DNA of 64,000 bases from Demequina subtropica (GTDB lineage Bacteria; Actinomycetota; Actinomycetes; Actinomycetales; Demequinaceae), in NCBI RefSeq assembly GCF_000971235.1, contig NZ_BBMB01000004.1, positions 86,988-150,987 on the forward strand. The letters run 5' to 3'. The notes beneath the pieces were generated by a model. It had not been told where the DNA came from, did not search any database, and saw only the letters and a program-made list of their open reading frames with translations. The position numbers and the translations under genes were made by a program. The stretch's first letter is position 1. Every line of letters starts with the position of its first letter. Shown here in pieces: positions 1-44,250 of this stretch.

Positions 1-2380
1 GCCCGCCGAGCGGCCCCGCCTGCGCGTAGGCGGGAGCCGAGAGGTCCTGAGGCGGATACCCGGCGCCAGGCGCGGGCTCCGCCTGCGGCGCATCGTGCGC
101 GCCCACTCGGAACGGGGCGTCTCCTGCGCGGCGGCCGTACCGGGGCTCGTCGGCGGGGGTCGGCTCAGGCGCGCTGATCGGTGCCACAGGCGCGTCGACC
201 GGCGCGGGCTTGGGCTCCGGCTCGACGACGGCCGCGGGGTTCGGTGCCGGTCCAGCGTCCACCGCGGGCGCTGGCGCGGGCTCCGGCGCGGGTTCGGGGT
301 CGACGGCCGCGTCGGCGCTGTCGCCCGCGTCGCGGTTGGCGGACGCCGCGGGGCCGCTCGCCGGAGCGGCGTCGGGGCCGGGCGCGGCCTGCTCGTCCGC
401 GGAGGGCCGGTCCTCGCCGACGGTCCCGGCCGCGGTGTCCCCGGCCACGGTGTCCCCGGCCACGGTGTCCTCGGCCGCGGTGTCCTCGACCACCACGGCA
501 TCGTCGCCGACCGATGCCGTGCCGCCCGAGGGGCCGGCCGCGACGACGGGCGCCGTCATGGGGGCCGCCTCAAGCGGCGCGGCGCCCACCGGCGAGGCGA
601 CAGGGGCGGGCGCGGGCGCAGCGATCGCGACCGGCGCGAGCGACGGCATGGGAAGCTGCAGCTGCTGCTGCGGCGCCGGCGAGCCGAGGCTCCGCTGGAC
701 GCCCACCATCGCGAACGCCTCGGCGGGCAGCGTCGAGGCGGCGACGAGCGCGGCGAGCTCGCCGTCGAGGTCGTCGTCCTCGACGGCCTCATCGTCGTCG
801 CGCTCCTTGCTGCTGAGGCGCGGCTTGAGGTTCAGGCCGGCGGAGACCACGAAGGCGCCGAGGATCACGGTGTTGAGCAGGTTCCACATCGTCGCGAGGG
901 TGAGGAACCCGTTGCCGACGTCGCGCCAGATCGCGACGGCCGAGGCGATCAGCAGGAAGGCGAGGAACAGCATCTGCGGGATCATGAAGTTGAACGGCGA
1001 GCTCTGCTTGAGCGTGCCCGTCGCCTGCCAGCCGACGTCCTTGCCCCGCAGGACGTTGAACAGCGCCTTCGTGTAGATGGGGAAGGACACGGTGGCAAGC
1101 GTCAGCGTCTCCCACTTGTAGGTCCCGAGCGTGAACCACGCGAGCGCGATCTGCATCGCGTAGAAGCCCGCGTAGTACAGCGTCCACTCGAGCATCGAGA
1201 TCGACAGCGACACGGGCCGGAGGTCGAAGAAGATCTCGAGCGGCGGCACCAGCAGCAGCGGCAGGGGCGCGATGCCGGTGAGGTAGAACGATGCCGTGGT
1301 GAAGTACTGGAGCCGTTGGTCGAGAGTGAGCTTGGACCTGCGCGAGAACAGCGGGTGGGTGAAGAGGATCTCGAAGCCGCCGGTGGCCCACCGGAGCTGC
1401 TGCTTGGAGAAGGCCTCGACGTTGTCGGGCGCGTCGCCCACCGCGAGGACCTCGGGGATGAAGATCGACTTCCAGCCGCGCTCGTGCATCATGAGCGACG
1501 TCCAGACGTCCTCCGACTTCGAGTCCGTGTAGATGCCGTTGACGTCGAGCACGGCCTCGCGCCGGAACATCACGTTGGTGCCCACGCAGAACGCGGCGTT
1601 GAAGCGGTTCTTGCCTGGCTGGACGAAGCGATAGAAGACCGTCTGCATGTAGGCGGCGCCCTTGGCGATGACCGAGTGCGCCTCGTTGCCGTAGCTCTGG
1701 GGGGTCTGCACGAACGCGAGCTTGGGATCGATGAAGAACGGAAGCGTGTGCTCGATGAAGTCGGGCCGGGGGACGAAGTCCGCGTCGAACACCGCGAAGC
1801 ACTCGCCCTTGGCGAGCGTCAGCGCGTGGTTGATGTTGCCCGCCTTCGCGCCGTGCGAGCTCAGGCGGCGGACGTAGCGCACGCCGATGCGGGCCGCGAG
1901 GTCGCGGACGTCGTCGCTGCGGCCATCGTCGAGGATCCAGGTGCGGTGCTCGCCGCGCATGTCGCGCGCGGCGGTCGCGGTGCGCTCGATCACCTCGAGC
2001 GGCTCGCCGTACACCGTGATGAGGATGTCCACCACGATCGGGCGGCCGCCGAGCAGGAGCGGCCACGTGGTGGGGTCGCCCTGGAGGTGCGCGTAAAGCC
2101 CGGCACGCGCCTGGTGCACCGCGAACGTCCGGGGGTTCTGGCCGCCCGCAAGGATGGTCCACATCGTCATGAGCGAGTGGAAGACCAGCACCAGCTCCGC
2201 CGACAGCACCATGACGTACGGCAGCGTGTCTCCGCGGTTGTCGGGGTTGAGCAGGAAGAGCGTGTACGCGAGGACCCCGATGGTCGCGATGATGACCAAC
2301 GTGATGAGCACCGGCGACTGCTCTGAACCCATGTGCTGGTGGTCCGAGCGTGGCTCGGCGCGAGACGCGAGGGGATTCAT
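1..2380 (-). CDS. Processive GT2 glycosyltransferase (cellulose synthase-like), C-terminus cut by window edge
   Basis: Membrane family 2 glycosyltransferase that should polymerise a beta-linked glucan from a nucleotide sugar and pass it across the membrane. The first 793 codons are visible and remain open at position 1. Two membrane segments lie near residues 18-70. The catalytic set follows: LDDGRSD (about residue 150), FDADF (about 197), SKSEDVW (about 289) and QQLRWATGG (about 328), then about five more membrane segments. The family core ends near residue 520; the rest is an Ala/Pro/acid-rich tail. The start at 2380 has AGGAG 7 nt upstream; an in-frame ATG at 2332 is a weaker choice. It is a paralogue of the GT2 at 5351-7204 and lies 278 bp downstream of the GH81 gene. 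The polymer is not determined by sequence; a beta-glucan is inferred from the neighbours. Confidence 0.9.
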   Translation of the reverse strand, partial: MNPLASRAEPRSDHQHMGSEQSPVLITLVIIATIGVLAYTLFLLNPDNRGDTLPYVMVLSAELVLVFHSLMTMWTILAGGQNPRTFAVHQARAGLYAHLQGDPTTWPLLLGGRPIVVDILITVYGEPLEVIERTATAARDMRGEHRTWILDDGRSDDVRDLAARIGVRYVRRLSSHGAKAGNINHALTLAKGECFAVFDADFVPRPDFIEHTLPFFIDPKLAFVQTPQSYGNEAHSVIAKGAAYMQTVFYRFVQPGKNRFNAAFCVGTNVMFRREAVLDVNGIYTDSKSEDVWTSLMMHERGWKSIFIPEVLAVGDAPDNVEAFSKQQLRWATGGFEILFTHPLFSRRSKLTLDQRLQYFTTASFYLTGIAPLPLLLVPPLEIFFDLRPVSLSISMLEWTLYYAGFYAMQIALAWFTLGTYKWETLTLATVSFPIYTKALFNVLRGKDVGWQATGTLKQSSPFNFMIPQMLFLAFLLIASAVAIWRDVGNGFLTLATMWNLLNTVILGAFVVSAGLNLKPRLSSKERDDDEAVEDDDLDGELAALVAASTLPAEAFAMVGVQRSLGSPAPQQQLQLPMPSLAPVAIAAPAPAPVASPVGAAPLEAAPMTAPVVAAGPSGGTASVGDDAVVVEDTAAEDTVAGDTVAGDTAAGTVGEDRPSADEQAAPGPDAAPASGPAASANRDAGDSADAAVDPEPAPEPAPAPAVDAGPAPNPAAVVEPEPKPAPVDAPVAPISAPEPTPADEPRYGRRAGDAPFRVGAHDAPQAEPAPGAGYPPQDLSAPAYAQAGPLGG
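428..487 (-). repeat. 15-bp tandem repeat in the GT2 tail
   Basis: Four consecutive 15-bp units (ggccgcggtgtcccc and close variants) encode a D-T-(A/V)-A-(G/E) pentapeptide repeat in the low-complexity C-terminal tail of the GT2 gene. It keeps frame, so it is part of the coding sequence and could vary in length between strains. Confidence 0.8.
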
Positions 2381-2542
2381 CGGGGGCTCCTGGGGGACGG
2401 GCAACGTGTGCGTGTCGTATGGGGGGAGACGGCTACGCTGCCTGTCGCGGGATCCGCGGTCCGCCGATCGTCAAGGCGGGCCGGTCGACCTGGGTCCGGT
2501 CGACCTGCCCGACGTCCTCACACGCCCGGCGCACCCTCATGG

Positions 2543-2558
2543 TGTCGGATATCTCACA
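2543..2558 (-). promoter_or_regulatory. CRP/GlxR-like site upstream of the second GT2 gene
   Basis: On the minus strand the sequence reads TGTGA-GATATC-CGACA, matching 8 of the 10 defined bases of the CRP-family consensus TGTGA-N6-TCACA. It lies about 165 bp upstream of the GT2 start at 2380. A separate palindrome, TTTAC-G-GTAAA, is at 2595-2605 in the same gap. Both are candidate sites only. Confidence 0.35.
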
Positions 2559-2658
2559 ACCTCTACAAGGGTTTTCGGCCAACTCCCAGCCATCTTTACG
2601 GTAAAGGCGGAGGGTAAAATCCCACGTAGACGACAGAACGGGGCAAACTGTCGGCGCC

Positions 2659-4632
2659 TCAGCCCGCCGCGGCGATCCACGCGAGCAGCCAGGTGCGCGT
2701 GTCGCCGTCATCGATCGCGTCGTCCGGAAGGGAGATCGCGGCCTCCCAGGCCTCGGCGCGCTCCTCGTCACCCGCGAGCGCGCGGTACATGAGGAGGTAG
2801 TCGGCGAACATCGCGGGAAGGTTCGCGTCCCCCCACGCCTCATCGACCGCGGCGACGATGCTCTCGGCCGGCACCGCGGCGAGCGGGTCCATCGCTGCGG
2901 GCTGGCCGGGGATGATCTGGATGCCGAGCATCGCCGCAGGCTCGGCGCTGAACCACGTCGCGTAGTCGCGCTTCGCCCCCCACTCGATCGCGACGATGCC
3001 GTGCGCGAACTCGGGGAACTCCGACAGGTCGGGCGCGAGCCAGAGCCGCGTTGCGGCCTCGGACTCCGCGGACAGCATCCACCGCGCCGAGTCGCCCAAG
3101 GCGTCGTCGTCGGTCACCGCCGCCCACAGCGCCACGGCGTTCCAGGCGAGCACCGCCTCGGAGCTCGACTCCTGGTTGTTGCCATCCGCGAACGGGCTGA
3201 TCCCGCTGGCCCACGAGTGTCCCGCGACGGGGTCGAAGGCGCGTCGCACCGGGAACGCCTCCGATGTCCCTGGCGCCGCGATGTCCTCCGCGACCAGGTC
3301 CATCACCGGAGCGATCCGCTCGGCCAGCTCGGAGTCGCGCGCGCCCGCGACCGCGGCGGCGTAGAGCAGGTAGCCGTAGTGGAAGTGATGATCGTTGAAC
3401 TGCTCGGAGCCGAAGGCGGTGGCGAGGCCCACGACCCCCCGGAGGGTGGGGTCGTAGGTGAAGCAGCGCTCCGCCCGCGCGGCACAGCCGTCGGCCTCGC
3501 CCCACAGGTCGAGCTGCTCGGCGAGGCTGCGCTGCAGCCGCGCGGCCACCTCATCCTCGCCCAGCGCATCGGCCACCTGCACCAGGTTGGCGAGCCGGTA
3601 CAGCGCCTTCGACCCGAAGTAGGTGTCCGCGGGGAGCTCGAGCGCGGCGTCGGCATCCGCGGCCAGCGCCTCCGCGATGGCCTCGCGCTCGGGGTCGGTG
3701 ATCCCCGACAGGTCCAGCGATGCCGAGGGCTCGACCAGCGAGACGTCCCAGGACGCCTCCGCGGCGGCGCACACGGAGTAGGTCCCGTGGATCGTCGCGT
3801 ACGTCCCGAGCGCGCACTCGAGGCCCTCCGCGCGGTCGGCGGGCACCGCGACCACGGTGGGCTCGTCCGCATAGGTCACCGTGGTGGTCGCCGCGTCGTC
3901 CAGGGTGAACGATGCGTCGGCGCCGCGCGCGAGCGGGCCCAGGGCGGCGGCGAACGCCGCGGCATCGCCGCCGTCGGGCACCGCGAACAGCTGCGCGGTG
4001 CCGCCGGGATCGAGCGACAGCGACGTGCCGTCCACCGAGCCCCCGTCGAGCGCGAGGCCGTAGGCGGTCTCGCCGACCGTCGCGGTCGCCACGCCGTCGC
4101 CCGCGTCCACGAAGGCCACGGAGAGGGTCGCCTCGGTCCCGCCGGCGGCCGTGAAGCCGATCACGGGAACGCCTTGCGCGAGCACCACGTCGACGGGTCC
4201 GAGCGTGAGCGTGGTCCCCACCGGGGTCGCCTCCGTCACCTCGCCGTAGCCGCTCGCGCCGGAGAACGTCACGGTGACGTCCGTGACGGCGGGCGCCACG
4301 ATCGCGTTCTCGGAGGCGACGGGCCGGGTGAGCCCCGCCGCGAAGCCGCCGTCGACCGCCTGGAAGGACAGCGGCGTGGGGAACACCGGCAGGCCGGGGT
4401 CCCCGAAGGCGAGAGCCGAGTACCAGCGGTTCGTCGGCGGCACCACGTCCTCTCCCACCCGGGTGGCGACGGCCGCATCGGCCGCCGCGGGCAGGATCGA
4501 GGGGTCCGGGCCGTCGACGCGGACGCCCGGGCCACCGGAGGCGGTGCCCGATGCGCCGGGCGCCGCGGCGCCCGAGCATGCCCCGAGCGCGAGGGCGGAG
4601 GCCGCGATGATCGCCACGATGCCGGCCCTCAC
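2659..4632 (-). CDS. GH81-family endo-beta-1,3-glucanase lipoprotein
   Basis: Predicted secreted endo-beta-1,3-glucanase anchored as a lipoprotein. The N-terminus carries a signal peptide with lipobox LGAC (Cys 19). GH81 hallmarks are NRWYSALAF and PTPLSFQ in the N-terminal beta-sandwich, NDHHFHYGY (about residue 413, including the conserved Asp), and NQESSSEA (about 487), whose two Glu four residues apart match the catalytic acid region of the family. At 657 residues it is slightly short for GH81. The GTG start at 4632 overlaps the stop of the adaptor gene (GTGA), so the two are translationally coupled. In this operon it may trim or release the glucan made by the GT2 enzymes, as BcsZ does in cellulose operons; that role is inferred. 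Confidence 0.88.
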   Translation of the reverse strand: MRAGIVAIIAASALALGACSGAAAPGASGTASGGPGVRVDGPDPSILPAAADAAVATRVGEDVVPPTNRWYSALAFGDPGLPVFPTPLSFQAVDGGFAAGLTRPVASENAIVAPAVTDVTVTFSGASGYGEVTEATPVGTTLTLGPVDVVLAQGVPVIGFTAAGGTEATLSVAFVDAGDGVATATVGETAYGLALDGGSVDGTSLSLDPGGTAQLFAVPDGGDAAAFAAALGPLARGADASFTLDDAATTTVTYADEPTVVAVPADRAEGLECALGTYATIHGTYSVCAAAEASWDVSLVEPSASLDLSGITDPEREAIAEALAADADAALELPADTYFGSKALYRLANLVQVADALGEDEVAARLQRSLAEQLDLWGEADGCAARAERCFTYDPTLRGVVGLATAFGSEQFNDHHFHYGYLLYAAAVAGARDSELAERIAPVMDLVAEDIAAPGTSEAFPVRRAFDPVAGHSWASGISPFADGNNQESSSEAVLAWNAVALWAAVTDDDALGDSARWMLSAESEAATRLWLAPDLSEFPEFAHGIVAIEWGAKRDYATWFSAEPAAMLGIQIIPGQPAAMDPLAAVPAESIVAAVDEAWGDANLPAMFADYLLMYRALAGDEERAEAWEAAISLPDDAIDDGDTRTWLLAWIAAAG

Positions 4633-5354
4633 AGGCCCACCCGCCTCGCCAGGTCGCCCAGGGCGGCGCTCACGTCCGCGAGCGGGCCGTCGTCACGCAG
4701 CTCCAAGGTCGCATCCAGCGGGGTGCCGGGCTGCAGCAGGGCGTCCGAGGCGACGGTGCCGAGGTCGCTCGACTCCACGCGCGCGGTCACGTAGGCGGCG
4801 CCGTCGACGGTCTCGACCTGGAGGTCCTCGATGGCTCCCGTCGCGGTGCTGCCGTCCGGCAGCCGCAGCCGCACCGACGCGTGGTCGGCCACCCGTCCGA
4901 AGTCGCGTGTGGTGAGCTCGAACTCCGCCTCGACGTACTCGCTCTCGGCGGCGTCGATGGTGGCGATGACGGCGCCGGTCCCGGCGTACCCGCCCGCGTC
5001 GACCTCGATGGCGGAGACGGTGCCGTCCACGGCCGCACGGACGGTGACGGTGCCGTCCTTGGCGAAGGACCCGGTGATGGGCGTCGCGAGACCCTGGCGG
5101 ATGTCGCGTGCGAGCGTGACGCTCTCGATGGTGAACAGGCGCTGCCCCTCGCGGACCAGGTCCCCCTCGTCGACGTAGCGTTCGAGCACGAGGCCACCGT
5201 AGTCGGTGCCCACGGCGTAGTGCTCCGTCTCGATCTGCGCCGAGGAGCTGAGCACCTGCGTCTGCCGGCGGTTGAACACGAGCGTCGCGGCGGCGACGAG
5301 CAGGAGCACGGCGAGCATGCCCGCGACCAGCTTGAATCGGTTGCCCCAGGTCAT
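4629..5354 (-). CDS. HlyD-like membrane-anchored adaptor
   Basis: A 241-residue protein with one N-terminal membrane segment (about residues 8-27, LVAGMLAVLLLVAAATLVF) followed by an extracytoplasmic region resembling HlyD/biotinyl-lipoyl barrel-sandwich adaptors: GLVLERYVDEGDLVREGQRL, then a second half-motif VSAIEVDAGGYAGTGAVIAT. It overlaps the upstream GT2 stop by ATGA and the downstream GH81 start by GTGA, so synthase, adaptor and hydrolase form one tightly coupled unit. By analogy with BgsB beside the BgsA synthase of Sinorhizobium meliloti, it probably helps the polymer cross the cell wall side; the analogy rests on domain type and position, not alignment. Confidence 0.75.
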   Translation of the reverse strand: MTWGNRFKLVAGMLAVLLLVAAATLVFNRRQTQVLSSSAQIETEHYAVGTDYGGLVLERYVDEGDLVREGQRLFTIESVTLARDIRQGLATPITGSFAKDGTVTVRAAVDGTVSAIEVDAGGYAGTGAVIATIDAAESEYVEAEFELTTRDFGRVADHASVRLRLPDGSTATGAIEDLQVETVDGAAYVTARVESSDLGTVASDALLQPGTPLDATLELRDDGPLADVSAALGDLARRVGL

Positions 5355-7204
5355 CGTCGTGCCTCCCTTCGTGCGCGGCGTCCCACGAGCGGCGCCGGCT
5401 CCTCGGCGGCCGGGGGACGATGCGCGAGCAGCGTGGTGGGCGGAGCATCGTGCACGCGGGTGGCCCCCGCATGCGCGGGCTCGGCGGAGCGGGTGCCGAC
5501 CGTTGCCCAGGCGGGCGCCCGGCGCCCCTCGGACTCGCGCGCGGCGATGCCCGCGGTGACCTGCTCGGGGCGGGCGACCACCGTGGCGGGCTCGCGCGGC
5601 GCATCGTCCGCGGGGGCCGTCGGCGGGGCCAGGTCGCGGCCCTTGCGCAGCGCGCGCGCCTCTCGCCGCGCCGCGAGCAGGAACGCCCCGAGGATCACCG
5701 TGTTGGTGACGTTCCATGCGGTCGCGAGCGTGGGCACGCGGTTGTCCCAGTCGCGCCACACCGCCACCACCGAGGTGAGCAGGAGGAACTCGAAGAAGAG
5801 CACCTGCGGCACGATGAAGTTGAACGGCGAGCGCGCCCGGGTGGACCCCGTGGACGTCCAGCCCACGTCCCGCTGCGTGAAGGCGTTGACGAAGGCCTTG
5901 AGGTAGATGGGGAAGGACACCGTCGACAGGGTCAGCGTCTGCCAGCGGAAGGACCCGAGCGTGAACCACGCGAGCCCGATCTGCATGAGGTAGAAGCCGG
6001 CGTAGAAGAACAGCCAGGTCCCCACCGAGATGGACAGCGCCATGGGGCGCAGGTCGAAGTAGATCTCGAGGGGCGGCACCAGGAGCAGGAGGAGCGGCGC
6101 GATGCCCGTGAGGTAGAACGTCGCCGTCACGAGGTACTGGATGCGCTGGTCCGCCGTGAGGTTGCGGCGCGGGCTCAGCGGGTTGTGGGTGAGCAGGATC
6201 TCGAAGCCCCCGGTCGCCCAGCGCAGCTGCTGCTTCGCGTATGCCTCGACGGTGTCGGGCGCGTCCCCGACGGCGAGCACGGTGGGGATGTAGACGGACC
6301 GCCACCCTCGCTCGTGCATGAGGATCGACGTCCACACGTCCTCGGACTTCGAGTCGGTGTAGATGCCGCCTACGTCCTCGACCGCGGCGCGGCGGAACAC
6401 CACGTTGGTGCCGACGCAGAACGCGGCGTTGAAGCGGTTCCGGCCCGGCTGCACGAAGCGGTAGAAGACGGCCTGCATGTAGCCCGCGCCCTTGGCGATG
6501 GTGGTGTGGAGGTTGCCGTACGTCTGCGGCGTCTGCACGAAGGCGACGTCGTCGTCGACGAAGAACGGCACCGTCTCGAGCAGGAAGCGCGGGTCCGGGA
6601 CGAAGTCGGCGTCGAAGATCGCGAACAGCTCGCCCTTGGCCAGCGTGAGCGCGTGGTTGACGTTGCCCGCCTTCTGGCCGCCCGAGCTGAGGCGGCGCAC
6701 GTAGCGCGCGCCGAGCTCCTCGGCGAGGTCCCGGACCTGGTCGCTGCGGCCGTCGTCGAGCACCCACGTCCGGTGCCTGCCGTGCAGCGCGACCGCCGCG
6801 GCGACGGTGCGCCGGATGGTCTCGATGGGCTCGCCGTAGACGGTGATGAACACGTCGACCGTGATGCGCCGCCCTCCGAGCTGGAAGGGCCAGGCGGTCG
6901 GCGCGCCGGCGGCGGAGCGACCGAGCAGGTGCTCGCGTGCCTGGTGGAACGAGTAGCCGCGCGGGTCGACGGCGCCCGCCAGGATGGTCCACATCGACAG
7001 GAGCGCGTGGAACACGAGCACGGACTCCGCCGAGATGACGAGCACCCACGGGATCACGTCGCCGCGGTTCGCAGGGTTCAGCAGGAACCCGGAGTAGACC
7101 AGGATCCCGAGCGTGGCGAGCACCACGAGCAGGGTGAGGACGGGGGAGTGGCCCGTCGCGCGGTCCCGGGAGACCGGCGGCGGTGAGGCGTCGAGCGATC
7201 GCAT
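5351..7204 (-). CDS. Processive GT2 glycosyltransferase (cellulose/beta-glucan synthase-like)
   Basis: First gene of the polysaccharide operon, 617 residues. Two membrane segments (about 20-75), then the processive GT2 signature: LDDGRSD (about residue 149), FDADF, SKSEDVW, QQLRWATGG, then about five C-terminal membrane segments and a basic cytoplasmic tail. No PilZ domain is visible, so no direct c-di-GMP control is evident. The start at 7204 is preceded by GAGAGGAG at good spacing; upstream in-frame codons are non-coding in character. Highly similar to the GT2 at 1-2380 through the catalytic core but with a shorter tail. The two GT2 proteins may make different linkages or form a pair. Confidence 0.93.
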   Translation of the reverse strand: MRSLDASPPPVSRDRATGHSPVLTLLVVLATLGILVYSGFLLNPANRGDVIPWVLVISAESVLVFHALLSMWTILAGAVDPRGYSFHQAREHLLGRSAAGAPTAWPFQLGGRRITVDVFITVYGEPIETIRRTVAAAVALHGRHRTWVLDDGRSDQVRDLAEELGARYVRRLSSGGQKAGNVNHALTLAKGELFAIFDADFVPDPRFLLETVPFFVDDDVAFVQTPQTYGNLHTTIAKGAGYMQAVFYRFVQPGRNRFNAAFCVGTNVVFRRAAVEDVGGIYTDSKSEDVWTSILMHERGWRSVYIPTVLAVGDAPDTVEAYAKQQLRWATGGFEILLTHNPLSPRRNLTADQRIQYLVTATFYLTGIAPLLLLLVPPLEIYFDLRPMALSISVGTWLFFYAGFYLMQIGLAWFTLGSFRWQTLTLSTVSFPIYLKAFVNAFTQRDVGWTSTGSTRARSPFNFIVPQVLFFEFLLLTSVVAVWRDWDNRVPTLATAWNVTNTVILGAFLLAARREARALRKGRDLAPPTAPADDAPREPATVVARPEQVTAGIAARESEGRRAPAWATVGTRSAEPAHAGATRVHDAPPTTLLAHRPPAAEEPAPLVGRRARREARR

Positions 7205-7372: not shown

Positions 7373-7406
7373 TCGCGGTGCCTGCGGTCGGATTCGAGGC
7401 TTCCTG

Positions 7407-7435
7407 TTGCAAGCGTTTACATCGCCCGCTACGCT
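7407..7435 (+). promoter_or_regulatory. Amylopullulanase promoter with LacI-type operator
   Basis: The -35 TTGCAA (7407-7412) and -10 TACGCT (7430-7435) have a 17-nt spacer. Overlapping the -35, TGCAAGCGTTTACA (7408-7421) fits the catabolite-responsive/LacI-family consensus TGNAANCGNTNNCA at every defined position. Repression by a LacI-type maltose or glucan regulator is the natural reading; that regulator is not obviously in this window. Confidence 0.65.
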
Positions 7436-7512
7436 CGCGCACATTCGGACATCTCGCATCACAACGTCGTGAACCGGCCACACCGACGTGGCCCCGAACC
7501 AGGGAGTACCCC

Positions 7513-13338
<5,826 letters not shown>

Positions 13339-27938: not shown

Positions 27939-29120
27939 GTGTCCGAGGTCACGCCGCCGGAGGAAGTGAAGAAGAAGGGCGTCTCGCGCCGTGGGCTGAT
28001 GATCGGGGGCGCGGCCGGTGCCGCGGGCCTCGGCGCCGTCTACCTCATGGGCCGCGGCGGTGGCGGCGACGCATCCGCCGACTGCGTCACCACGGACCTC
28101 TCGGACACCGAGGCCGTGCTCAACGTCTCGAACTGGCCCGCGTACATCGACGAGGACGACGGCGACTACATCTCCACCCTCACGGCCTTCCAGGAGGAGT
28201 CCGGGCTCAAGGTCACCTACACGCCGGACGTCAACGACAACATCGAGTTCTTCGCGAAGGTGCGCAACCAGCTCGGCGCGTGCCAGCCGACCGGACGCGA
28301 CCTGTTCGTGCTCACCGACTGGATGGCCGCGCGCATGATCGACGCCGGCTGGATCCAGAAGCTCGACAAGGCGAACGTCCCGAACCTCGACAAGAACCTG
28401 CTCTCGTCGCTCCAGGGCGTCGGCTGGGACCCGAACCGCGAGTACTCGGCGCCGTGGCAGTCGGGCTTCTCCGGCATCGCCTACAACAAGTCCCTCGTCG
28501 GCGAGGTCTCGACCATCGACGAGCTGCTCACGCGCTCGGACCTCAAGGGCAAGGTCACCCTGCTCACCGAGATGCGCGACACCATGGGCCTGCTCCTGCT
28601 CGCCGATGGCGCGGACCCGTCGAACTTCAGCGACGACGAGTGGGGCAACGCCCTCGAGAAGATCTCGAAGGCGCGCTCGGACGGTCAGATCCGTGCGTTC
28701 ACCGGCAACGAGTACATCAACGACCTCGCCAACGGCAACATCGCGGCGTGCGTCGCGTGGTCGGGCGACGTCGCGGCCGCCGAGGACGAGAACCTGGTCT
28801 TCCTGCCCCCGCAGGAGGGCATGATGATCTGGTCCGACAACATGCTCGTGCCGGTCCAGGGCACCCACAAGGCCAACGCCGAGAAGTGGATCGACTACTA
28901 CTACGACCCGGCCGTGGCCGCGAAGCTCGCCGCCTACGTCTGGTACGTGTGCCCCGTCGAGGGTGCGCAGGCGGAGATGGAGAAGATCGACCCGTCGCTG
29001 GTCGACAACCCGCTCATCTTCCCGACCGCCGACTACCTCGCGCAGACGCACTCCTTCATGGCGCTCGACGAGGCGAAGGCGTCGCAGTACGAGAAGGACT
29101 TCGCAGATGTCACTGGCTGA
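27939..29120 (+). CDS. potD: Spermidine/putrescine-binding protein, Tat-exported
   Basis: Extracytoplasmic substrate-binding protein of 393 residues. The N-terminus has a twin-arginine motif (SRRGLM, residues 16-21) and a hydrophobic segment, so export is by Tat. The mature part resembles PotD: LNVSNWPAYID, a TDWMAARMI region, WSGD and GMMIWSDNMLVP. The GTG start has a perfect AAGGAGG 5 nt upstream. Its end overlaps potA by 14 nt. Confidence 0.92.
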   Translation: MSEVTPPEEVKKKGVSRRGLMIGGAAGAAGLGAVYLMGRGGGGDASADCVTTDLSDTEAVLNVSNWPAYIDEDDGDYISTLTAFQEESGLKVTYTPDVNDNIEFFAKVRNQLGACQPTGRDLFVLTDWMAARMIDAGWIQKLDKANVPNLDKNLLSSLQGVGWDPNREYSAPWQSGFSGIAYNKSLVGEVSTIDELLTRSDLKGKVTLLTEMRDTMGLLLLADGADPSNFSDDEWGNALEKISKARSDGQIRAFTGNEYINDLANGNIAACVAWSGDVAAAEDENLVFLPPQEGMMIWSDNMLVPVQGTHKANAEKWIDYYYDPAVAAKLAAYVWYVCPVEGAQAEMEKIDPSLVDNPLIFPTADYLAQTHSFMALDEAKASQYEKDFADVTG

Positions 29121-30255
29121 CCAGGCCCGTGGGGACCTCAAGCTCACCGGTCTCCACAAGCGCTACCCCAACGGCTTCGTGGCCGTGGAGTCGCTCGACC
29201 TGGTGATCCCGCAGGGCTCCTTCTTCGCGCTGCTGGGCCCCTCGGGCTGCGGCAAGACCACGACGCTGCGGATGGTCGCCGGCCTCGAGGAGGCCACCAA
29301 GGGGACCATCCACATCGGCGACCAGGACATCACGGACGCCAAGCCCTACAAGCGGCCCGTCAACACGGTGTTCCAGAACTACGCCCTGTTCCCGCACCTC
29401 ACCATCGCGGAGAACGTCGCGTTCGGCCCCAAGCGCCGTGGCGCGAAGGATCCCGCGCAGGAGGTCAAGGAGATCCTCGCGCTGACGGAGCTCACCGAGC
29501 AGGCGAACAAGAAGCCGACGCAGCTGTCGGGTGGTCAGCAGCAGCGCGTCGCGCTGGCTCGCGCGATCATCAACCGGCCCGACGTGCTGCTGCTCGACGA
29601 GCCGCTCGGCGCGCTGGATCTCAAGCTCCGTCGCGCGATGCAGATCGAGCTCAAGCGCATCCAGGAGGAGGTGGGCCTCACCTTCGTGCACGTCACGCAC
29701 GACCAGGAGGAGGCCATGACGATGGCCGACACGGTCGCCGTCATGAACAAGGGCCGCATCGAGCAGATGGGCGCGCCCTACGACCTCTACACGAACCCGC
29801 AGACGACGTTCGTGGCGAACTTCCTGGGCCGCTCGAACCTCATCAAGGGCACGGTCGTGGGCCGCGAGGGCTCGGGCGCCGATGCCGTGGTGAAGGTCGA
29901 CATGCACGGCACGATCGCGACGATCAAGGCGAGCAAGGTCCACACCGACTCCGACCACGGCTGGGTGGGCATCCGGCCCGAGAAGGTCCTCATCCAGCCC
30001 GAGGGCCAGGCCATCGACGCTCCGGGAGCCGCGCTCTCCGGCGCGGTGGTGGTCGACGCGAGCTACATCGGCGTCTCCACCGACTACACGCTGCGGATGC
30101 CGTGGGGCCAGGAGATCACCTGCTTCGAGCAGAACACGGGCCGCCGCGGCGGGCTCATCCCGGTGGGCACCAAGGTCGACGTGTCCTGGCGTCCCGAGTT
30201 CGCGTTCCTCCTCGACTCCGCCCAGGACGCCGAGGCAGGGCTCGAGGAGGACTGA
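29107..30255 (+). CDS. potA: Spermidine/putrescine ABC transporter ATPase
   Basis: A 382-residue ATPase. Walker A is GPSGCGKTT, followed by a Q-loop FQNYALFPH, signature LSGGQQQR, Walker B LLLDEPLGALD and the H-loop HVTHD, then a C-terminal TOBE domain (about residues 290-375). It powers polyamine import with PotB and PotC. ATG 29107 is chosen because it begins the family N-terminus inside the potD 3' end. Confidence 0.95.
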   Translation: MSLADQARGDLKLTGLHKRYPNGFVAVESLDLVIPQGSFFALLGPSGCGKTTTLRMVAGLEEATKGTIHIGDQDITDAKPYKRPVNTVFQNYALFPHLTIAENVAFGPKRRGAKDPAQEVKEILALTELTEQANKKPTQLSGGQQQRVALARAIINRPDVLLLDEPLGALDLKLRRAMQIELKRIQEEVGLTFVHVTHDQEEAMTMADTVAVMNKGRIEQMGAPYDLYTNPQTTFVANFLGRSNLIKGTVVGREGSGADAVVKVDMHGTIATIKASKVHTDSDHGWVGIRPEKVLIQPEGQAIDAPGAALSGAVVVDASYIGVSTDYTLRMPWGQEITCFEQNTGRRGGLIPVGTKVDVSWRPEFAFLLDSAQDAEAGLEED

Positions 30256-31122
30256 ATGGAGGCGCTCCAGCGGGTGTTCGGCAAGAACGCCGCCTATCTC
30301 CTCATCGGGCCGGCCGCGATCTGGCTCGCGGTCTTCTTCCTGTTCCCGATGCTGTCACTGCTCACCACGTCGCTGTCGGACCCGGCGACGGGCTCGCCGA
30401 TCAACGGCTACACGCTCACGTGGCGCGTCGACAACTACGTCGAGGCGCTCGGCGAGTACTGGCCGTACATGATGCGCTCGCTCCTCTACGCCGGCATCGC
30501 CACGCTGGGGTGCCTGGTGCTGGGCTACGTGCTGGCGTACGCGATCGCGTTCAAGGCGGGACGGTGGAAGACGGTGATGCTCGTGCTCGTCATCGCGCCG
30601 TTCTTCACGTCCTTCCTGGTGCGCACGCTGTCCTGGAAGCTCATCCTCGCGGACAACGGGTTCATCGTGAACACCCTCCAGACGCTGCACATCCTGGGGG
30701 AGGACGGGCGCCTGCTCGCCACGCCGTTCGCGGTGATCATGGGCCTGACGTACAACTTCCTGCCCTTCATGATCCTCCCGCTCTACACGAGCCTCGAGAA
30801 GATCGACCCGAAGCTCAACGAGGCCGCGGCAGATCTGTACGCGAGCCCGTGGCAGCGCTTCACCAAGGTGATCTGGCCGCTCTCGCTGCCGGGCGTCGTC
30901 GGCGGCACGCTGCTGACGTTCATCCCGGCCACCGGCGACTACATCAACGCCTCGCTGCTCGGCAGCCCCAACACCCAGATGGTCGGCAACAAGATCCAGC
31001 AGCTGTTCACCACCGCGGGCGACTACCCGCACGCCTCCGCGCTGTCCGTGATCCTCATGGTGCTCATCGTCGCCATGGTGCTCTTCTACGTGCGCCGCGC
31101 AGGAACGGAGGAGCTGCTGTGA
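30256..31122 (+). CDS. potB: Spermidine/putrescine ABC permease PotB
   Basis: A 288-residue inner-membrane permease with six predicted segments and the EAA loop (NEAAADLYASPWQRFTKVIW). It begins immediately after the potA stop and its own stop overlaps potC (GTGA). Confidence 0.95.
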   Translation: MEALQRVFGKNAAYLLIGPAAIWLAVFFLFPMLSLLTTSLSDPATGSPINGYTLTWRVDNYVEALGEYWPYMMRSLLYAGIATLGCLVLGYVLAYAIAFKAGRWKTVMLVLVIAPFFTSFLVRTLSWKLILADNGFIVNTLQTLHILGEDGRLLATPFAVIMGLTYNFLPFMILPLYTSLEKIDPKLNEAAADLYASPWQRFTKVIWPLSLPGVVGGTLLTFIPATGDYINASLLGSPNTQMVGNKIQQLFTTAGDYPHASALSVILMVLIVAMVLFYVRRAGTEELL

Positions 31123-31943
31123 TCACCCGCGTCGGCAACTGGATCGGCAAGCACCTCATGCTCACGCTGGGCATCCTGGTGCTGCTGTACATGTACATCC
31201 CGAACTTCATCGTCGCGTTGATGTCCTTCAACGACTCGTCGGAGTCGCGCAACCTCTACCAGTTCCAGTCCTTCACGTGGGACAACTGGCTGAACCCGTG
31301 TGCGCCTCAGGGCATGTGCGAGTCGCTCCGGGTGAGCATCAGCATCGGGCTGCTGGCGACGCTCGTCGCCACGATCATCGGCACGCTCGCCGCGTTCGCG
31401 CTCGTGCGCCACCGCTTCGAGGGCCGGTCCACCATGAACCTGGTGCTGTTCCTGCCGATGGCCACGCCCGAGATCGTCATGGGCTCGTCGCTCCTCGCGC
31501 TCTTCGTCGCGGCAGGCTTCGGCGGGCAGCTCGGCTTCTGGACGGTGTTGATCGCGCACATCATGTTCTGCATCTCGTTCGTGGTGGTGACGGTCCGCTC
31601 GCGCCTCGCGGGCCTCGACTCGAACCTCGAGAAGGCGGCGTCGGACCTCTACGCCAACGAGTGGCAGACCTTCTGGAGGATCACGTTCCCGCTGGTCTTC
31701 CCGGGCATCCTGTCCGCGGCGCTGCTCGCGTTCTCGCTGTCCTTCGACGACTTCATCATCACGAACCTCAACTCGGGCACCACGGTGACCTTCCCGATGT
31801 TCGTGTGGGGCGCCGCTCAGCGCGGCGTGCCGATGCAGGTCAACGTCATCGGCACGCTGATGTTCCTGCTCGCGCTCGGCATCGTCATCGGCGGCGAGGT
31901 GCTCTCCCGCCGTCGCGCCAAGGGCAAGGCCGTCACGCTCTGA
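31119..31943 (+). CDS. potC: Spermidine/putrescine ABC permease PotC
   Basis: A 274-residue permease with six segments and an EAA loop (EKAASDLYANEWQTFWRITF). The GTG start overlaps the potB stop, so potDABC is a coupled operon ending in a terminator. Confidence 0.95.
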   Translation: MITRVGNWIGKHLMLTLGILVLLYMYIPNFIVALMSFNDSSESRNLYQFQSFTWDNWLNPCAPQGMCESLRVSISIGLLATLVATIIGTLAAFALVRHRFEGRSTMNLVLFLPMATPEIVMGSSLLALFVAAGFGGQLGFWTVLIAHIMFCISFVVVTVRSRLAGLDSNLEKAASDLYANEWQTFWRITFPLVFPGILSAALLAFSLSFDDFIITNLNSGTTVTFPMFVWGAAQRGVPMQVNVIGTLMFLLALGIVIGGEVLSRRRAKGKAVTL

Positions 31944-31952
31944 ACCAGGCAT

Positions 31953-31990
31953 GAGAAGGGCCCCGATCCGCGTGGATCGGGGACCTTCTC
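31953..31990 (+). terminator. Terminator of potDABC
   Basis: A 16-bp stem with one internal mismatch (GAGAAGG-g-CCCCGATCC, loop GCGT), 10 nt after the potC stop. Confidence 0.85.
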
Positions 31991-32047
31991 GCGTCCCCGC
32001 TCGATCCGAAAATGGTGCCTCACTGTCGCGTTTCGGGAATCCCCGCC

Positions 32048-39330: not shown

Positions 39331-40395
39331 TCAGCGCGGCGCGCGGGCCGTCGTCGAGCCGAGTCGCAGCTCGAGCGGCATCACCACCGGCTCGGGGGAC
39401 TCGCCTGCGAGCAGCGCCTTGACCTCGGCGGCCAGCGCATGGCCCTTCGCCTCGGCGTCCTGCACCTGCGTCGTGAGCTCGTGCGGCGCGATCCACGGGA
39501 TGTCGATCCCGTCGAAGCCCGTGACCGACAGCTGCTGAGGCACGGGGATGTCGAGCTCGCGCGCCGCCAGGATCGCGCCCCCCGCGAGGAGGTCGGACTG
39601 GCACACCAGGGCGGTGGGGCGGGGCTCCGAGGCGAGCGCGAGGTGCGCGGCCGCGATCCCCTCGGCGACGATCGACGCGCGCGCCTCGACCACCACGCAC
39701 GGCTCGATGCCCGCATCCGCGAAGGCCTCGAGGCGCCGGTGCACGGGCGTCCATGCGGTCTGAGCGAGCGCCTCCTCGAGCGTGAGGACGCGGGTCTCGC
39801 CGTCGAGCCCCGACGGCAGCGTGATGGTGCCGATGCGCTCGTGGCCCAGGTCCCTCAGGTGGCGGATGAGCGCCGCGGTGGCGGCGCGGTCGTCGATCTC
39901 GAGCACCCCGGCGCCGGCAGGGGCCTCTCCCTCCATCACGACGACCGGCAGCCCGCGGCGGCGGGCGATCTCGATCGCCGGCTCGTCGTCGTGGTCGCGC
40001 ACGCGCAGCAGCACCGCGGCGTCCATCGCGGCGGTCTCGAGCAGGCTGCGCTCCCCGGGCTCGCCGGTAGGCGTCGGGATCAGCAGGACGCCGAGCCCCA
40101 TCTGCCCCAGATCGCCCACCAGCCCGTCCATGATGCGGAGCATGAGCGGGTCGCGGAAGGACAGCTGCAGGCGCTCGTGGATCACCACGCCGACCACGCC
40201 GGTGCGGCCCGAGCGCAGCGCGCGCGCATGCGGCGCGGGCCCGGCGTAGCCGAGGTGCTCGGCGGCGCGCTCGACCTTGGCGCGCGTCTCCGGTGACAGC
40301 GGGCCGGCGCCGGAGTAGGCGAGCGACACGGTCGACACGGAGACGCCCGCGTGCGCGGCCACATCGGCCATGGTGGGGCGACGCGTGCGCGACAC
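39331..40395 (-). CDS. LacI-family transcriptional regulator
   Basis: A 354-residue repressor type protein with an N-terminal helix-turn-helix (TMADVAAHAGVSVSTVSLAY), hinge helix region, and a periplasmic-binding-like effector domain ending in the FDGIDIPWIAPHELTTQVQ region. The GTG start at 40395 has GGGAGAG 5 nt upstream. It is divergent from two MFS transporter genes, which it probably controls; the effector is unknown. It could also be the regulator of the LacI-type site at 7408-7421, but distance argues against it. Confidence 0.92.
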   Translation of the reverse strand: MSRTRRPTMADVAAHAGVSVSTVSLAYSGAGPLSPETRAKVERAAEHLGYAGPAPHARALRSGRTGVVGVVIHERLQLSFRDPLMLRIMDGLVGDLGQMGLGVLLIPTPTGEPGERSLLETAAMDAAVLLRVRDHDDEPAIEIARRRGLPVVVMEGEAPAGAGVLEIDDRAATAALIRHLRDLGHERIGTITLPSGLDGETRVLTLEEALAQTAWTPVHRRLEAFADAGIEPCVVVEARASIVAEGIAAAHLALASEPRPTALVCQSDLLAGGAILAARELDIPVPQQLSVTGFDGIDIPWIAPHELTTQVQDAEAKGHALAAEVKALLAGESPEPVVMPLELRLGSTTARAPR

Positions 40396-40497
40396 TTGCT
40401 CTCCCTCGGCTCGGTTGGAGGTCAGCGTAGCGCCGGACCATGCCGATGCAGGGCATAGCCTGGGATGCCGCCCACCCGCGGCCTGTCAGGAGGAGAA

Positions 40498-41832
40498 GTG
40501 GCACACGCCCCCGCCGGGCTCAGCCCCGCCCGCATCGCCGCCGCGCGCCGCGGCGTGCTCGCGATCTTCTGGATCATGGGCGTCTTCATGGCGACGCAGG
40601 TCTCGCGCTACCCGACCATCACCGAGCTGCTCGACGTCTCGACCGGCGAGCTGGCGCGGCTGCTGCTGTTCGGCGCGCTCGGCGCGCTGTGCGCGCTGCT
40701 CGTGACGGGCTGGTCCGTGGCGCGCTTCGGGACGCGTGAGCTCCTGTGGTGGTCGTCCTTCGGCTTCCTCGCGGCGATCGCGCTGCTGGGCGCCGCGACC
40801 GCGTGGGCCTCCCAGCCGCTCTTCGCCGTCGCATCGTTCCTGGTGTCGGTCGGTTTCGCGGTGACCAACGTGAGCATGAACGCCGAGGCCGCCGCGGTGG
40901 AGCGGGCGATGGAGCGCGCCGTGCTCCCGCAGTTCCACGCGGCGTTCTCCGTCGGCATGGCGATGGGGCTCGCGCTCGGCGCCGCGGTCTCCCACCTGGG
41001 CGTCGCGCCCGTGTGGCACTTCCTCGGGGTGGGCGTGGTGCTCACCGCGCTGCGGCTCGCGGTGCTCCCGGCCGCCGTCATGGACGGGCGCCCGCGGCCG
41101 GACGATGCGCGCCCCGGGCTGGGCGGCCCCTTCGCGGCCGCGCGCGACGAGTACCGCGACCGCCGCGTGGTGCTCATCGGCCTCATCGTGTTCTCCGCGT
41201 CGACCATCGAGGGGGCCGCCGCGCAGTGGGCGTCGCTCGCCGTGGTGGAGGCGTTCGACCAGCCCGAGGCGGTCGGCGACCTCCTCTACTGGGTGTTCGT
41301 GGTCGCGATGGTGACGCTTCGGTGGGGCGGCGCCGCGGTCATCGGCCGGCTGGGCCGTGTGGTCGCGCTACGGGCCTCCGCCGCGCTGGTGATCGCGGGC
41401 GTCGCGATCTTCGCGTTCGCGCCCGCGCTCGCGCTCGTGCCGGTGGGCATGGTGCTGTGGGGGCTCGGCGCCGCGCTCGGCGTGCCGATCGGCTTCTCCG
41501 CGGCCTCGGACGAGCCCGACAAGGCCGCGGCGCGCGTGGCGGCCGTGTCCTCGTTCTCGACCATCGCGGGCCTCGTGATGCCGCAGGTGATCGGCCACCT
41601 GGGCGACCTGGTCGAGCTGCGCAAGGCGCTCCTCGTCACCGTGCCGGCGGCGGTGCTGTCCTTCCTGATCGCGCGCGCGGTGCGACGCGAGGGCCCGCTG
41701 TTCCGGTCGCATCGTGCCCTCGCGCGCCGCGTCGAGGACGAGGCGGCGCGTGACGAGGCCGCGGCCGTGGTCGCCGACGGTCTCGAGCCCGTCCAGGCGC
41801 TCCCGGAGGAGGACGCCCCGGTCGAGCGATGA
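40498..41832 (+). CDS. MFS transporter (YbjJ-like), paralogue 1
   Basis: A 444-residue 12-segment MFS protein. The NVSMNAEAAAVERAMERAVL and QFHAAFSVGMAMG motifs place it near YbjJ-type exporters. The GTG start has AGGAGGAG just upstream; a -10 TAGCCT lies at 40456-40461. It shares several motifs with the next gene, so the two are tandem paralogues. Substrate unknown. Confidence 0.87.
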   Translation: MAHAPAGLSPARIAAARRGVLAIFWIMGVFMATQVSRYPTITELLDVSTGELARLLLFGALGALCALLVTGWSVARFGTRELLWWSSFGFLAAIALLGAATAWASQPLFAVASFLVSVGFAVTNVSMNAEAAAVERAMERAVLPQFHAAFSVGMAMGLALGAAVSHLGVAPVWHFLGVGVVLTALRLAVLPAAVMDGRPRPDDARPGLGGPFAAARDEYRDRRVVLIGLIVFSASTIEGAAAQWASLAVVEAFDQPEAVGDLLYWVFVVAMVTLRWGGAAVIGRLGRVVALRASAALVIAGVAIFAFAPALALVPVGMVLWGLGAALGVPIGFSAASDEPDKAAARVAAVSSFSTIAGLVMPQVIGHLGDLVELRKALLVTVPAAVLSFLIARAVRREGPLFRSHRALARRVEDEAARDEAAAVVADGLEPVQALPEEDAPVER

Positions 41833-41914
41833 GGCGCCCCTGCCACGGTGTCGGTCCCCGGTGCTAGCGTCGGGAGGGTCCTGGCGCTGAGGGACGATGC
41901 GGAGGGGGAGCCGC

Positions 41915-43204
41915 ATGGAGGCATCGTCGGTCGATGCGCGCCGCGTGCGTGCAGCGCGCGTGGGCGTGCTCGTGCTGTTCGTCGGCATGGGGATCATGCT
42001 GGGCACGCACGTGTCGCGCGTCCCCAGCATCCGCGACGCGCTCGGGCTCACGCCGGCCGGCCTCGCCGCGCTGTTCATCATCGGGTCGGTCGGCGGGCTC
42101 GTCGCCTTCGCGCTGCTCGGCGGCCTGGTCGCGCGCATGGGCTCGCTCGCGCTCATCCGCCTGGCCTCGGGGGCGACCATCGTGGGGTTCTGGGCGATGG
42201 GGTACGCCGCGCATCTGGGCACGTCGCTCGGCTTCGCCCTCGCGCTGTTCGTGACGCTCGGCGCGTTCGAGACCGTCAACGCGCTCGCGAACGCCGAGGC
42301 CGCGACCGTCGAACGCCTCGTGGGGCGCTCGATCATGTCGCAGTTCCACGCCGCGTTCTCGCTCGCGCTGCTCGCGGGCGTGGGCATCGGTGCGCTGTAC
42401 TCGCACGCGGGCGTGGCGGTAGGCGTGCACTTCGCGGTCAACGTCGCGGTGGTCGGCGCGGCGTTCCTCGCGGTGGCGGCCGTCGCGATCATCGACGGTC
42501 GCCCGCCGCCCGCGGACAGCGTCGAGAGCAAGGACGGGCTGTTCGTCACGCTCAAGGTGGCGGGGCGGGAGCCGCGCACGCTCGCGCTCGGCTTCATCCT
42601 GTTCTGCGCGTTCACGGTCGAGATGGGCGCCGCGGACTGGGTGCCGCTCGCGATCGTCGACGACTTCGGTCGCACCGAGGCGCTAGCGGCCGCGCTCTAC
42701 GCCGTCCTGGTGGTCGCGCAGAGCGTGATCCGGATGATGGGCGCGCCGCTCATCGACAGGCTCGGCCGCGTGACCGTGCTGCGGGCCTGCGCGGTGCTCG
42801 TCGCCGCGGGCGCCGTGGTCTTCGCGTTCACGCCGGCCTTCTGGGGGGTGCCGCTCGCGCTGCTGATCTGGGGTTGCGGCGTCTCGTTCGGATACCCGCT
42901 CGCGATCTCGGCCGCCGGCGACGACCGCACCCACGCGACCGCCCGCGTGGCCGCCGTCGCGGCCTTCGGCACCATCGCGGGCCTCACGATGCCGCAGGTC
43001 ATCGGGTTCATCGCGGAGCACATCGAGCTCCGCAAGGCGCTCCTCGTGACGGTGGTCGCGGCCGTGGCCATGTTCGCTCTCGCGCCGGCCGCGCGGCCGC
43101 TCGTCGCTGCGCCCGGGGCCCTGGGGGCGGGGGCCGGGGCCGGCGCCGGTGCGACCGAGCGGGACCGGGAGGAGGCGCGGGACGCCGATACCCTGGGACC
43201 ATGA
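41915..43204 (+). CDS. MFS transporter (YbjJ-like), paralogue 2
   Basis: A 429-residue MFS protein. NALANAEAATVERLVGRSIM, SQFHAAFSLALLAG and TMPQVIGFIAEHIELRKALL echo paralogue 1. The chosen ATG 41915 has GGAGGGGGAG upstream; ATG 41897 lacks one. Its stop overlaps murB (ATGA), and the Gly/Ala-rich C-terminus hosts the murB -10. Confidence 0.87.
   Translation: MEASSVDARRVRAARVGVLVLFVGMGIMLGTHVSRVPSIRDALGLTPAGLAALFIIGSVGGLVAFALLGGLVARMGSLALIRLASGATIVGFWAMGYAAHLGTSLGFALALFVTLGAFETVNALANAEAATVERLVGRSIMSQFHAAFSLALLAGVGIGALYSHAGVAVGVHFAVNVAVVGAAFLAVAAVAIIDGRPPPADSVESKDGLFVTLKVAGREPRTLALGFILFCAFTVEMGAADWVPLAIVDDFGRTEALAAALYAVLVVAQSVIRMMGAPLIDRLGRVTVLRACAVLVAAGAVVFAFTPAFWGVPLALLIWGCGVSFGYPLAISAAGDDRTHATARVAAVAAFGTIAGLTMPQVIGFIAEHIELRKALLVTVVAAVAMFALAPAARPLVAAPGALGAGAGAGAGATERDREEARDADTLGP
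43189..43194 (+). promoter_or_regulatory. Leaderless -10 of murB
   Basis: TACCCT, then 6 nt, then ATG 43201; lies inside the end of the MFS gene, giving murB a promoter of its own. Confidence 0.45.
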
Positions 43205-44250
43205 ACCTCGCCTCGCTGACCACCCTCCGTGTCGGCGGCCCGGCGCATGAGCTGCGCGAGGCGGAGAGCGAGGGTGACCTCATCGACGCGGTGCGGTCGG
43301 CGGACGCGGGCGGCACCCCGTTGCTCGTGGTCGGCGGAGGTTCGAACCTCCTGGTCTCGGACGAGGGCTTCGACGGCGTGGTGGTCCGGGACGCCCGCGC
43401 CGAGGTGAGCCTGGTCAACGACGGCGCCTGCGGCGGGCTGTCCATCACGGCGACCGCGGGCACGCCGTGGGACGCGCTCGTCGCGCAGGCGGTGGAGTCC
43501 GAGTGGAGCGGCTTCGAGGCGTTGTCCGGCATCCCGGGCTCCGCGGGCGCGACCCCGGTGCAGAACGTCGGCGCGTACGGCGCGGAGGTCAAGGACATCG
43601 TCGCGTCGGTGCGCACGTGGGACCGCGAGGCGGGCGCCGTGGCCACGCTGCCGCTGGTCAAGGCCGAGTTCGGCTACCGCGACTCGATGTTGAAGCGCAC
43701 GATGACCCACGGCCCGTGGGGCCCCACGCCCCGGTACGTCGTCATGGACGTGACGTTCCACACGCGGATGGCAAGCCTCTCTGCGCCCGTGCGCTACCAG
43801 CAGCTCGCGACCGCGCTCGGCGTCGAGCTCGGGGCCCGCGTGCCCATCACGGAGGTGCGCGCCGCGGTGCTCGAGCTGCGCGCCTCCAAGGGCATGGTGC
43901 TCGACCCGGCCGACCACGACACCTGGAGCGCCGGGTCCTTCTTCACCAACCCCATCGTCCCCGAGGCTGCGGTGCCCGTCGACGCCCCGCGCTATCCGGC
44001 CGCCGGCGACGGCCTGGTCAAGACGTCGGCGGCGTGGCTCATCGAGCACGCCGGCTTCGCGAAGGGCTTCGGCGTGGTCGACGATGCGCGGGCCACGCTG
44101 TCGACCAAGCACACGCTCGCGCTCACCAACCGGGGCGACGCGACGGCGGCGGACGTGGTCGAGCTCGCGCGCGCGGTCCGCGACGGCGTGCGCGAGGCGT
44201 TCGGGATCACCCTGGTCCCGGAGCCGGTGACCGTCGGCATCGAGATCTAG
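43201..44250 (+). CDS. murB: UDP-N-acetylenolpyruvoylglucosamine reductase
   Basis: A 349-residue FAD enzyme that makes UDP-MurNAc for peptidoglycan. The family core is TTLRVGGPA, VVGGGSNLLVSDEGFDG, GIPGSAGATPVQNVGAYG, EFGYRDSMLK and the SAGSFFTNPI active-site serine; KTSAAWLIEHAGFAKGF follows. It has the longer type I-like C-terminal region. Confidence 0.96.
   Translation: MNLASLTTLRVGGPAHELREAESEGDLIDAVRSADAGGTPLLVVGGGSNLLVSDEGFDGVVVRDARAEVSLVNDGACGGLSITATAGTPWDALVAQAVESEWSGFEALSGIPGSAGATPVQNVGAYGAEVKDIVASVRTWDREAGAVATLPLVKAEFGYRDSMLKRTMTHGPWGPTPRYVVMDVTFHTRMASLSAPVRYQQLATALGVELGARVPITEVRAAVLELRASKGMVLDPADHDTWSAGSFFTNPIVPEAAVPVDAPRYPAAGDGLVKTSAAWLIEHAGFAKGFGVVDDARATLSTKHTLALTNRGDATAADVVELARAVRDGVREAFGITLVPEPVTVGIEI

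Follow-up and report, generated by a model that had tools for sequence, protein, structure and literature searches.

Three overlapping genes at one end of a window from Demequina subtropica (genome 3.08 Mb) encode a GT2 membrane glycosyltransferase, a short HlyD-like protein and a GH81 lipoprotein. The question raised by this locus is which polymer such an assembly would make in a Gram-positive bacterium, and what part a hydrolase would play beside a synthase. The window, that is the whole stretch of DNA analysed, is 64,000 nucleotides long with about 71% G+C.

Layout of the locus and its duplicated module

The three genes are joined by 4-bp overlaps (Table 1), ATGA between GT2A and the HlyD-like adaptor and GTGA between the adaptor and GH81, with coordinates (7204 to 2659) and codons as read in a preliminary description made from the sequence alone. 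That description also placed a second GT2 with intact catalytic motifs at the end of the cluster. GT2B is present and keeps DD, DxD, ED and QxxRW, but it is cut by the window edge, stands 278 bp from GH81 and has a second HlyD-like gene after it. Because of this distance, GT2B probably belongs to a transcription unit separate from GT2A-HlyD-GH81, and since HlyD-like B lies 3' of it, the arrangement is that of a duplicated GT2-HlyD module, one copy of which carries GH81.

Table 1. Positions of the features of the GT2-HlyD-GH81 locus
Feature	Position in window	Strand	Remarks
GT2A, processive membrane glycosyltransferase, 617 aa	5351..7204	-	ATG 7204, stop 5351; Shine-Dalgarno-like AGGAG 5' of ATG
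HlyD-like adaptor A, 241 aa	4629..5354	-	ATG 5354, stop 4629; ATGA overlap with GT2A
GH81 endo-beta-1,3-glucanase-family lipoprotein, 657 aa	2659..4632	-	GTG 4632, stop 2659; GTGA overlap with HlyD A
GH81-GT2B intergenic gap, 278 bp	2381..2658	-	possible own promoter for GT2B module
GT2B, GT2A paralogue	1..2380	-	ATG 2380; gene extends past window edge
15-bp tandem repeat, 4.6 copies, in GT2B tail	425..493	-	encodes (D/E)TVAG-like units
HlyD-like B, 241 aa, 3' of GT2B	outside window		L002 7349-8074; G000 contig C20 85348-86073

GT2A and GT2B are 68% identical (blastp, 495 residues) and the two adaptors 45%; the duplicated pair, GT2B with adaptor B, probably forms a second synthase complex in this Demequina. 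GT2B is distinguished by a C-terminal tail of more than 430 residues (window 1-830, minus strand; L002 8090-9830), rich in P, A, G, Q and Y with GYPQQP-like repeats, which is probably disordered and cytoplasmic and is broken in the contig sequence by a run of 434 N just beyond the window. Its paralogue group occurs in five Demequina genomes and has long tails, the B-type proteins of the four other genomes being 924-1108 aa long. The twin synthase of the preliminary description is real here but limited to some Demequina; the operon of three genes, by contrast, is widespread.

A LacI-family operator-like palindrome, TGTAAACGCTTGCA, is located at 7405-7425, between the operon and a large divergent plus-strand gene (about 7500-13338) that resembles a secreted amylase/pullulanase; we take the palindrome to agree with a cre-type consensus at 13/14. 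Elsewhere in the window, the composition profile shows a local dip in G+C (66.7%) and a strong AT skew (-0.21) at 28001-32000 and 40001-44000.

Conservation of the gene order

When named genomes were scanned with an alignment of Demequina GT2s, 78 loci were obtained, 76 of which show the GT2-HlyD-GH81 order on one strand, while the remaining two end at contig edges. The hosts include Demequina, Cellulomonas, Cellulosimicrobium, Isoptericola, Sanguibacter, Microbacterium, Frigoribacterium, Cryobacterium, Curtobacterium and Agromyces, among others, and outside the Micrococcales Microlunatus and Friedmanniella (Propionibacteriales) and one MAG labelled Acidobacteria. One of the 76, from D. salsinemoris, has its GH81 before rather than after the scanned gene, which is of the GT2B type. 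Overlaps of 4 bp are found at the GT2/HlyD junction in 70 of 75 complete loci and at the HlyD/GH81 junction in 48. Gene order repeated in this way in other species is not due to chance, and the idea of an oddity restricted to Demequina was discarded.

Within Demequinaceae, GT2 and GH81 occur in the identical 27 of 47 genomes and are adjacent in nearly all; one genome has the operon split between contigs (G015) and another is fragmentary (G011). In a wider sample of the order, GH81 was found in 45 of 297 genomes. The GH81-bearing genomes outside Demequina number 29; 20 of these also possess the GT2, in every case immediately upstream of a GH81 and on its strand. The preliminary description had proposed a search for the three-domain neighbourhood across Actinomycetota and had made its reading depend on GH81 being conserved beside GT2 in relatives, as it proves to be in both surveys. 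The GT2 orthologue was found in none of 40 genomes lacking GH81, four of which have distant paralogues (32-37%). Naive Fisher tests of co-occurrence, made without correction for kinship, give p of 1e-13 for Demequinaceae and 9e-11 for other families, values that are too small because the genomes are kin. A phylum-wide sample (n=60) yielded nothing beyond the home genome and a single paralogue of 41%, so that the operon appears concentrated near this order. In the papers searched, those open without subscription, no description of a GT2-HlyD-GH81 operon, or of any operon joining GH81 to a synthase, was found; within the same compass GH81 stands as the undescribed third partner that the preliminary description took it to be. 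The operon is real, conserved and apparently undescribed.

The distant GT2 paralogues (32-37%) in other Micrococcales adjoin neither GH81 nor HlyD. Two of them (36-37%; L240 3777-8215 and L241 4845-8575), from another family of the order, are followed instead by an overlapping PMT_2 membrane glycosyltransferase and are possibly a different exopolysaccharide system.

Characteristics of the three proteins

GT2A matches GT2 families of Pfam (E 4e-24), and its best named relatives are from Demequina (D. gelatinilytica, 96%). It contains DD150-151, DAD198-200, SED287-289, QQLRW325-329, KAG178-180 and QTPQ224-227, with the gating loop W449-x-x-T452-G453; the motifs DD, DxD, ED, QxxRW, KAG and QxPH/Q of the BcsA/CelA/CrdS/BgsA class are all found in GT2A, GT2B and their relatives. 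Among NCBIfam models CelA ranks first with 229 bits, PgaC and NodC reaching 57 and 39, and among solved structures those of BcsA are the best match (E about 1e-46). These comparisons support a place nearest to the CelA/BcsA class, of the beta-glucan synthase type. Identity as a hyaluronan, PNAG or chitin synthase was rejected on the scores of the PgaC and NodC models, in which the affiliation with hyaluronan or poly-GlcNAc clades that the preliminary description had named as fatal to its reading does not appear. Nor does GT2A have the characteristics of a cellulose synthase proper (BcsA, TIGR03030), as it reaches 229 of the 699 bits of the CelA cut-off, gave no PilZ match and carries QTPQ, as do CrdS and BgsA, instead of QTPH; no PilZ domain, the regulatory c-di-GMP-binding domain, was found at the locus in the Pfam search. 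The AlphaFold model of GT2A (pLDDT 61) is unreliable in its transmembrane part and was left out of the argument.

A tree of 74 rows, built by a quick method, with long branches and without CrdS, unites the operon GT2s in a single clade (branch length 2.68); BcsA falls outside it, as does BgsA with other HlyD-linked rhizobial GT2s. Core identity is about 60-80% within the clade and 25-32% to the BcsA and BgsA types; it is 28% to BgsA itself and 20% to E. coli PgaC. Sites that discriminate CrdS from BcsA have been published, together with a gating motif, FxVTxK, reported as fully conserved in BcsA, CrdS and BgsA (PMC6821405). Every operon GT2 in the alignment has W-x-[V/A/S]-T-G in place of this motif. 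Three discriminating sites are CrdS-like, with Q for H276, Q for N298 and R/K for L309 (Q, Q and K in CrdS), and Y302 is in the BcsA, or cellulose-synthase, state. At CrdS positions Q237, Q259, K270, H374 and H442 the operon GT2s have Q, Q, R/K, V/T and L/M, without His at the equivalents of H374 and H442, the transmembrane alignment being uncertain at 28% identity. Other residues stand, under the same uncertainty of alignment, where BcsA has its channel aromatics F419, F426 and Y433, a loss that would fit the wider channel proposed for beta-1,3-glucan.

Adaptor A possesses an HlyD_3 domain (Pfam, E 2e-11), and its predicted model (pLDDT 84) has one transmembrane helix with barrel-sandwich and beta-barrel domains, without a long coiled-coil hairpin; the nearest folds are ZneB, AcrA and MexA. 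Domain and predicted fold together place it in the HlyD/membrane fusion protein superfamily. The preliminary description was reminded by GT2 and adaptor of the BgsA/BgsB system. A beta-glucan-type GT2 with an HlyD partner, and QTPQ, are indeed common to this locus and to BgsBA of Sinorhizobium/Rhizobium, but close kinship was rejected. The two GT2s, at the 28% identity given above, belong to separate clades, and the adaptor, with 241 aa, lacks the BgsB insert and aligns to BgsB over residues 1-83 only. The gene order is reversed as well, the HlyD gene coming first in BgsBA and encoding about 400-410 aa with a long insert, and the BgsBA operon has no hydrolase.

The GH81 protein matches Glyco_hydro81C (Pfam, E 2.6e-51) and aligns with solved GH81 enzymes. 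D414 (NDHHFHYGY) and E488/E492 (QESSSEA) are invariant across 19 homologues, and presumably correspond to acid and base in GH81 of Bacillus halodurans; domain and conserved acidic residues indicate membership in the family. The N-terminus bears a lipobox, LGAC, with Cys19. A lipobox is present in 61 of 75 operon GH81s, and the majority of the remainder, nearly all from Cellulomonas, have an N-terminal hydrophobic helix, so that membrane tethering seems to be conserved despite its changing form.

Two kinds of GH81 are separated by a Demequina profile. Operon GH81s score at least 560 bits and all but two examined adjoin HlyD, while other GH81s reach at most 265 bits, have no HlyD neighbour and are large and multidomain where scanned. 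The GH81 tree likewise splits the operon clade from degradative GH81s (SH-aLRT 100), which weakens the view of the operon GH81 as an ordinary degradative enzyme. The two orphans of the operon type, in genomes G129 and G207, which lack the GT2, have neither GT2 nor HlyD nearby (L238 4703-6673, L239 5119-7284) and are possibly remnants after synthase loss.

The polymer and its possible producers

The explanation we favour, with a probability of about 0.6 from the comparisons above, is a synthase-dependent exopolysaccharide operon that would make mainly linear beta-1,3-glucan of the curdlan type. GT2A would polymerise UDP-glucose, its likely substrate, at the cytoplasmic side and extrude a mainly linear, probably beta-1,3-linked glucan through a transmembrane channel of its own. 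Beyond this channel no outer membrane has to be crossed, and the HlyD-like protein, short and anchored by its one transmembrane helix, may serve at the exit as a collar or scaffold on the extracytoplasmic side. At the same exit, GH81, itself membrane-anchored, may trim or release the polymer or control its length, in the manner of BcsZ for cellulose and CcsZ in Clostridia, and the three proteins may act as a complex. GH81 enzymes require at least two beta-1,3 bonds side by side, and barley mixed-linkage glucan was left uncut by one enzyme tested (PMC9609564); in the mixed-linkage polymer of Sinorhizobium, 1,3 and 1,4 bonds alternate (PMC9495663). A dedicated, membrane-tethered GH81 therefore suggests a polymer that contains stretches of 1,3-linked glucose, and the need for adjacent bonds favours the curdlan type over an alternating polymer. 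Of the two products allowed by the preliminary description, beta-1,3- and mixed-linkage glucan, the former is thus preferred and the latter weakened.

A synthase resembling BgsA or RiGT2 might instead produce a mixed-linkage (1,3;1,4)-beta-glucan whose 1,3 blocks are trimmed by GH81, but this is unlikely on account of the substrate requirement, of the low identity to BgsA, which falls in a different clade, and of the search for a PilZ domain that found none at the locus. It would, on the other hand, agree with the HlyD partner as in BgsBA, with QTPQ, Q298 and R/K309, which are also common to BgsA, and with the mixed-linkage synthase known from the Gram-positive Romboutsia. Cellulose (beta-1,4), with GH81 as a neighbour of unrelated role or altered specificity, could be argued from the rank of CelA among the models and of BcsA among the solved relatives. 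We consider it quite improbable in view of the CelA score below cut-off, the change of QTPH to QTPQ, the replaced channel aromatics, an operon devoid of BcsB, PilZ and GH8/GH5 partners, and a GH81 family reported as beta-1,3-glucanase only.

GH81 enzymes are usually degradative, and marine and soil hosts encounter laminarin and fungi; the operon GH81 might accordingly serve at the surface to digest beta-1,3-glucan of foreign origin, from fungal walls or as laminarin, and be linked by co-regulation only to an unrelated GT2-HlyD polymer. The two orphans, and a second GH81 of the degradative type just downstream in some Cellulomonas, could be read in this way. The near-perfect linkage of GT2 and GH81 in several families, the overlapping start and stop codons, and the distinct clade of the operon GH81 make such a role highly doubtful. 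A different product, of the hyaluronan, chitin or PNAG kind, is extremely improbable: the GT2 fold and QxxRW motif are held in common with such synthases, but the PgaC and NodC scores, the identity to E. coli PgaC and the beta-1,3-glucanase partner all argue against it.

Linear beta-1,3-glucan, the favoured product, would be shared with CrdASC of Agrobacterium, as are DD, DxD, ED and QxxRW and, as aligned, the Q/Q/basic residues at three sites. The Agrobacterium genes are arranged crdA-crdS-crdC, with auxiliary proteins of unknown function (PMC10819609), where the Demequina operon has HlyD and GH81; compared at the published sites, the operon GT2s also differ from CrdS in the missing equivalents of H374 and H442 and in the changed FxVTxK. 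The Bcs operon (bcsABZC) likewise unites a synthase of the same GT2 class, an extracytoplasmic partner and a cognate endoglucanase, but has BcsB rather than HlyD, GH8 rather than GH81, a PilZ domain, QTPH and a beta-1,4 product. Gram-positive GT2 synthases are represented by clostridial ccsZABHI and Romboutsia RiGT2, the former with a GH5 hydrolase, CcsZ, and a membrane partner (PMC7710045). These systems differ in a PilZ-bearing CcsA, a CBM11-like CcsB, O-acetylation genes and the lack of HlyD and GH81, and their reported or proposed products are acetylated cellulose or mixed-linkage glucan.

Cellulomonas flavigena is an abundant producer of curdlan, and four GT2s, Cfla_3154, Cfla_2615, Celf_3456 and Celf_3585, two per genome and with 35-39% identity to CrdS, have been proposed as curdlan synthase homologues; GH81 is found in Cellulomonas genomes, and reuse of the curdlan was called unclear (PMC3544764). 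These candidate GT2s, published without a description of their gene neighbourhood, come from the same bacterial order and from genomes with GH81. The operon itself occurs in several Cellulomonas species other than C. flavigena, C. uda and C. terrae among them, and for Gram-positives such as Cellulomonas it is the best candidate to explain the synthesis of a curdlan-like glucan. Curdlan of C. flavigena has been known for decades, with its genes guessed through low identity to CrdS, and the operon offers a concrete candidate for both synthesis and trimming. A fuller proposal, tentative and at slightly less than even odds, is that this is the first Gram-positive curdlan-type synthase operon to be identified. 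It would combine a separate, deep GT2 clade whose gating loop is remodelled, an HlyD collar that lacks the hairpin, and a membrane-tethered GH81 dedicated to editing, extend over several Micrococcales families and Propionibacteriales, and be the source of Cellulomonas curdlan. The operon, conserved in numerous actinobacteria from soil and the sea, suggests that surface polymers of beta-1,3-glucan may be common in Micrococcales. It would extend the pattern of a synthase with its cognate hydrolase to GH81, and its GT2s provide sequence material on what decides between beta-1,3 and beta-1,4 linkage in GT2 synthases.

In C. fimi, a GH81 that lacks a typical leader was detected in the culture supernatant (PMC4780727), as might be expected of the operon type found in Cellulomonas. 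The second, degradative-kind GH81 lies directly downstream of the operon in four Cellulomonas loci (L160 10950-13620, L161 10904-13557, L165 10739-13611 and L166 10572-13557); that of L160, the one scanned among the four, has an fn3 domain.
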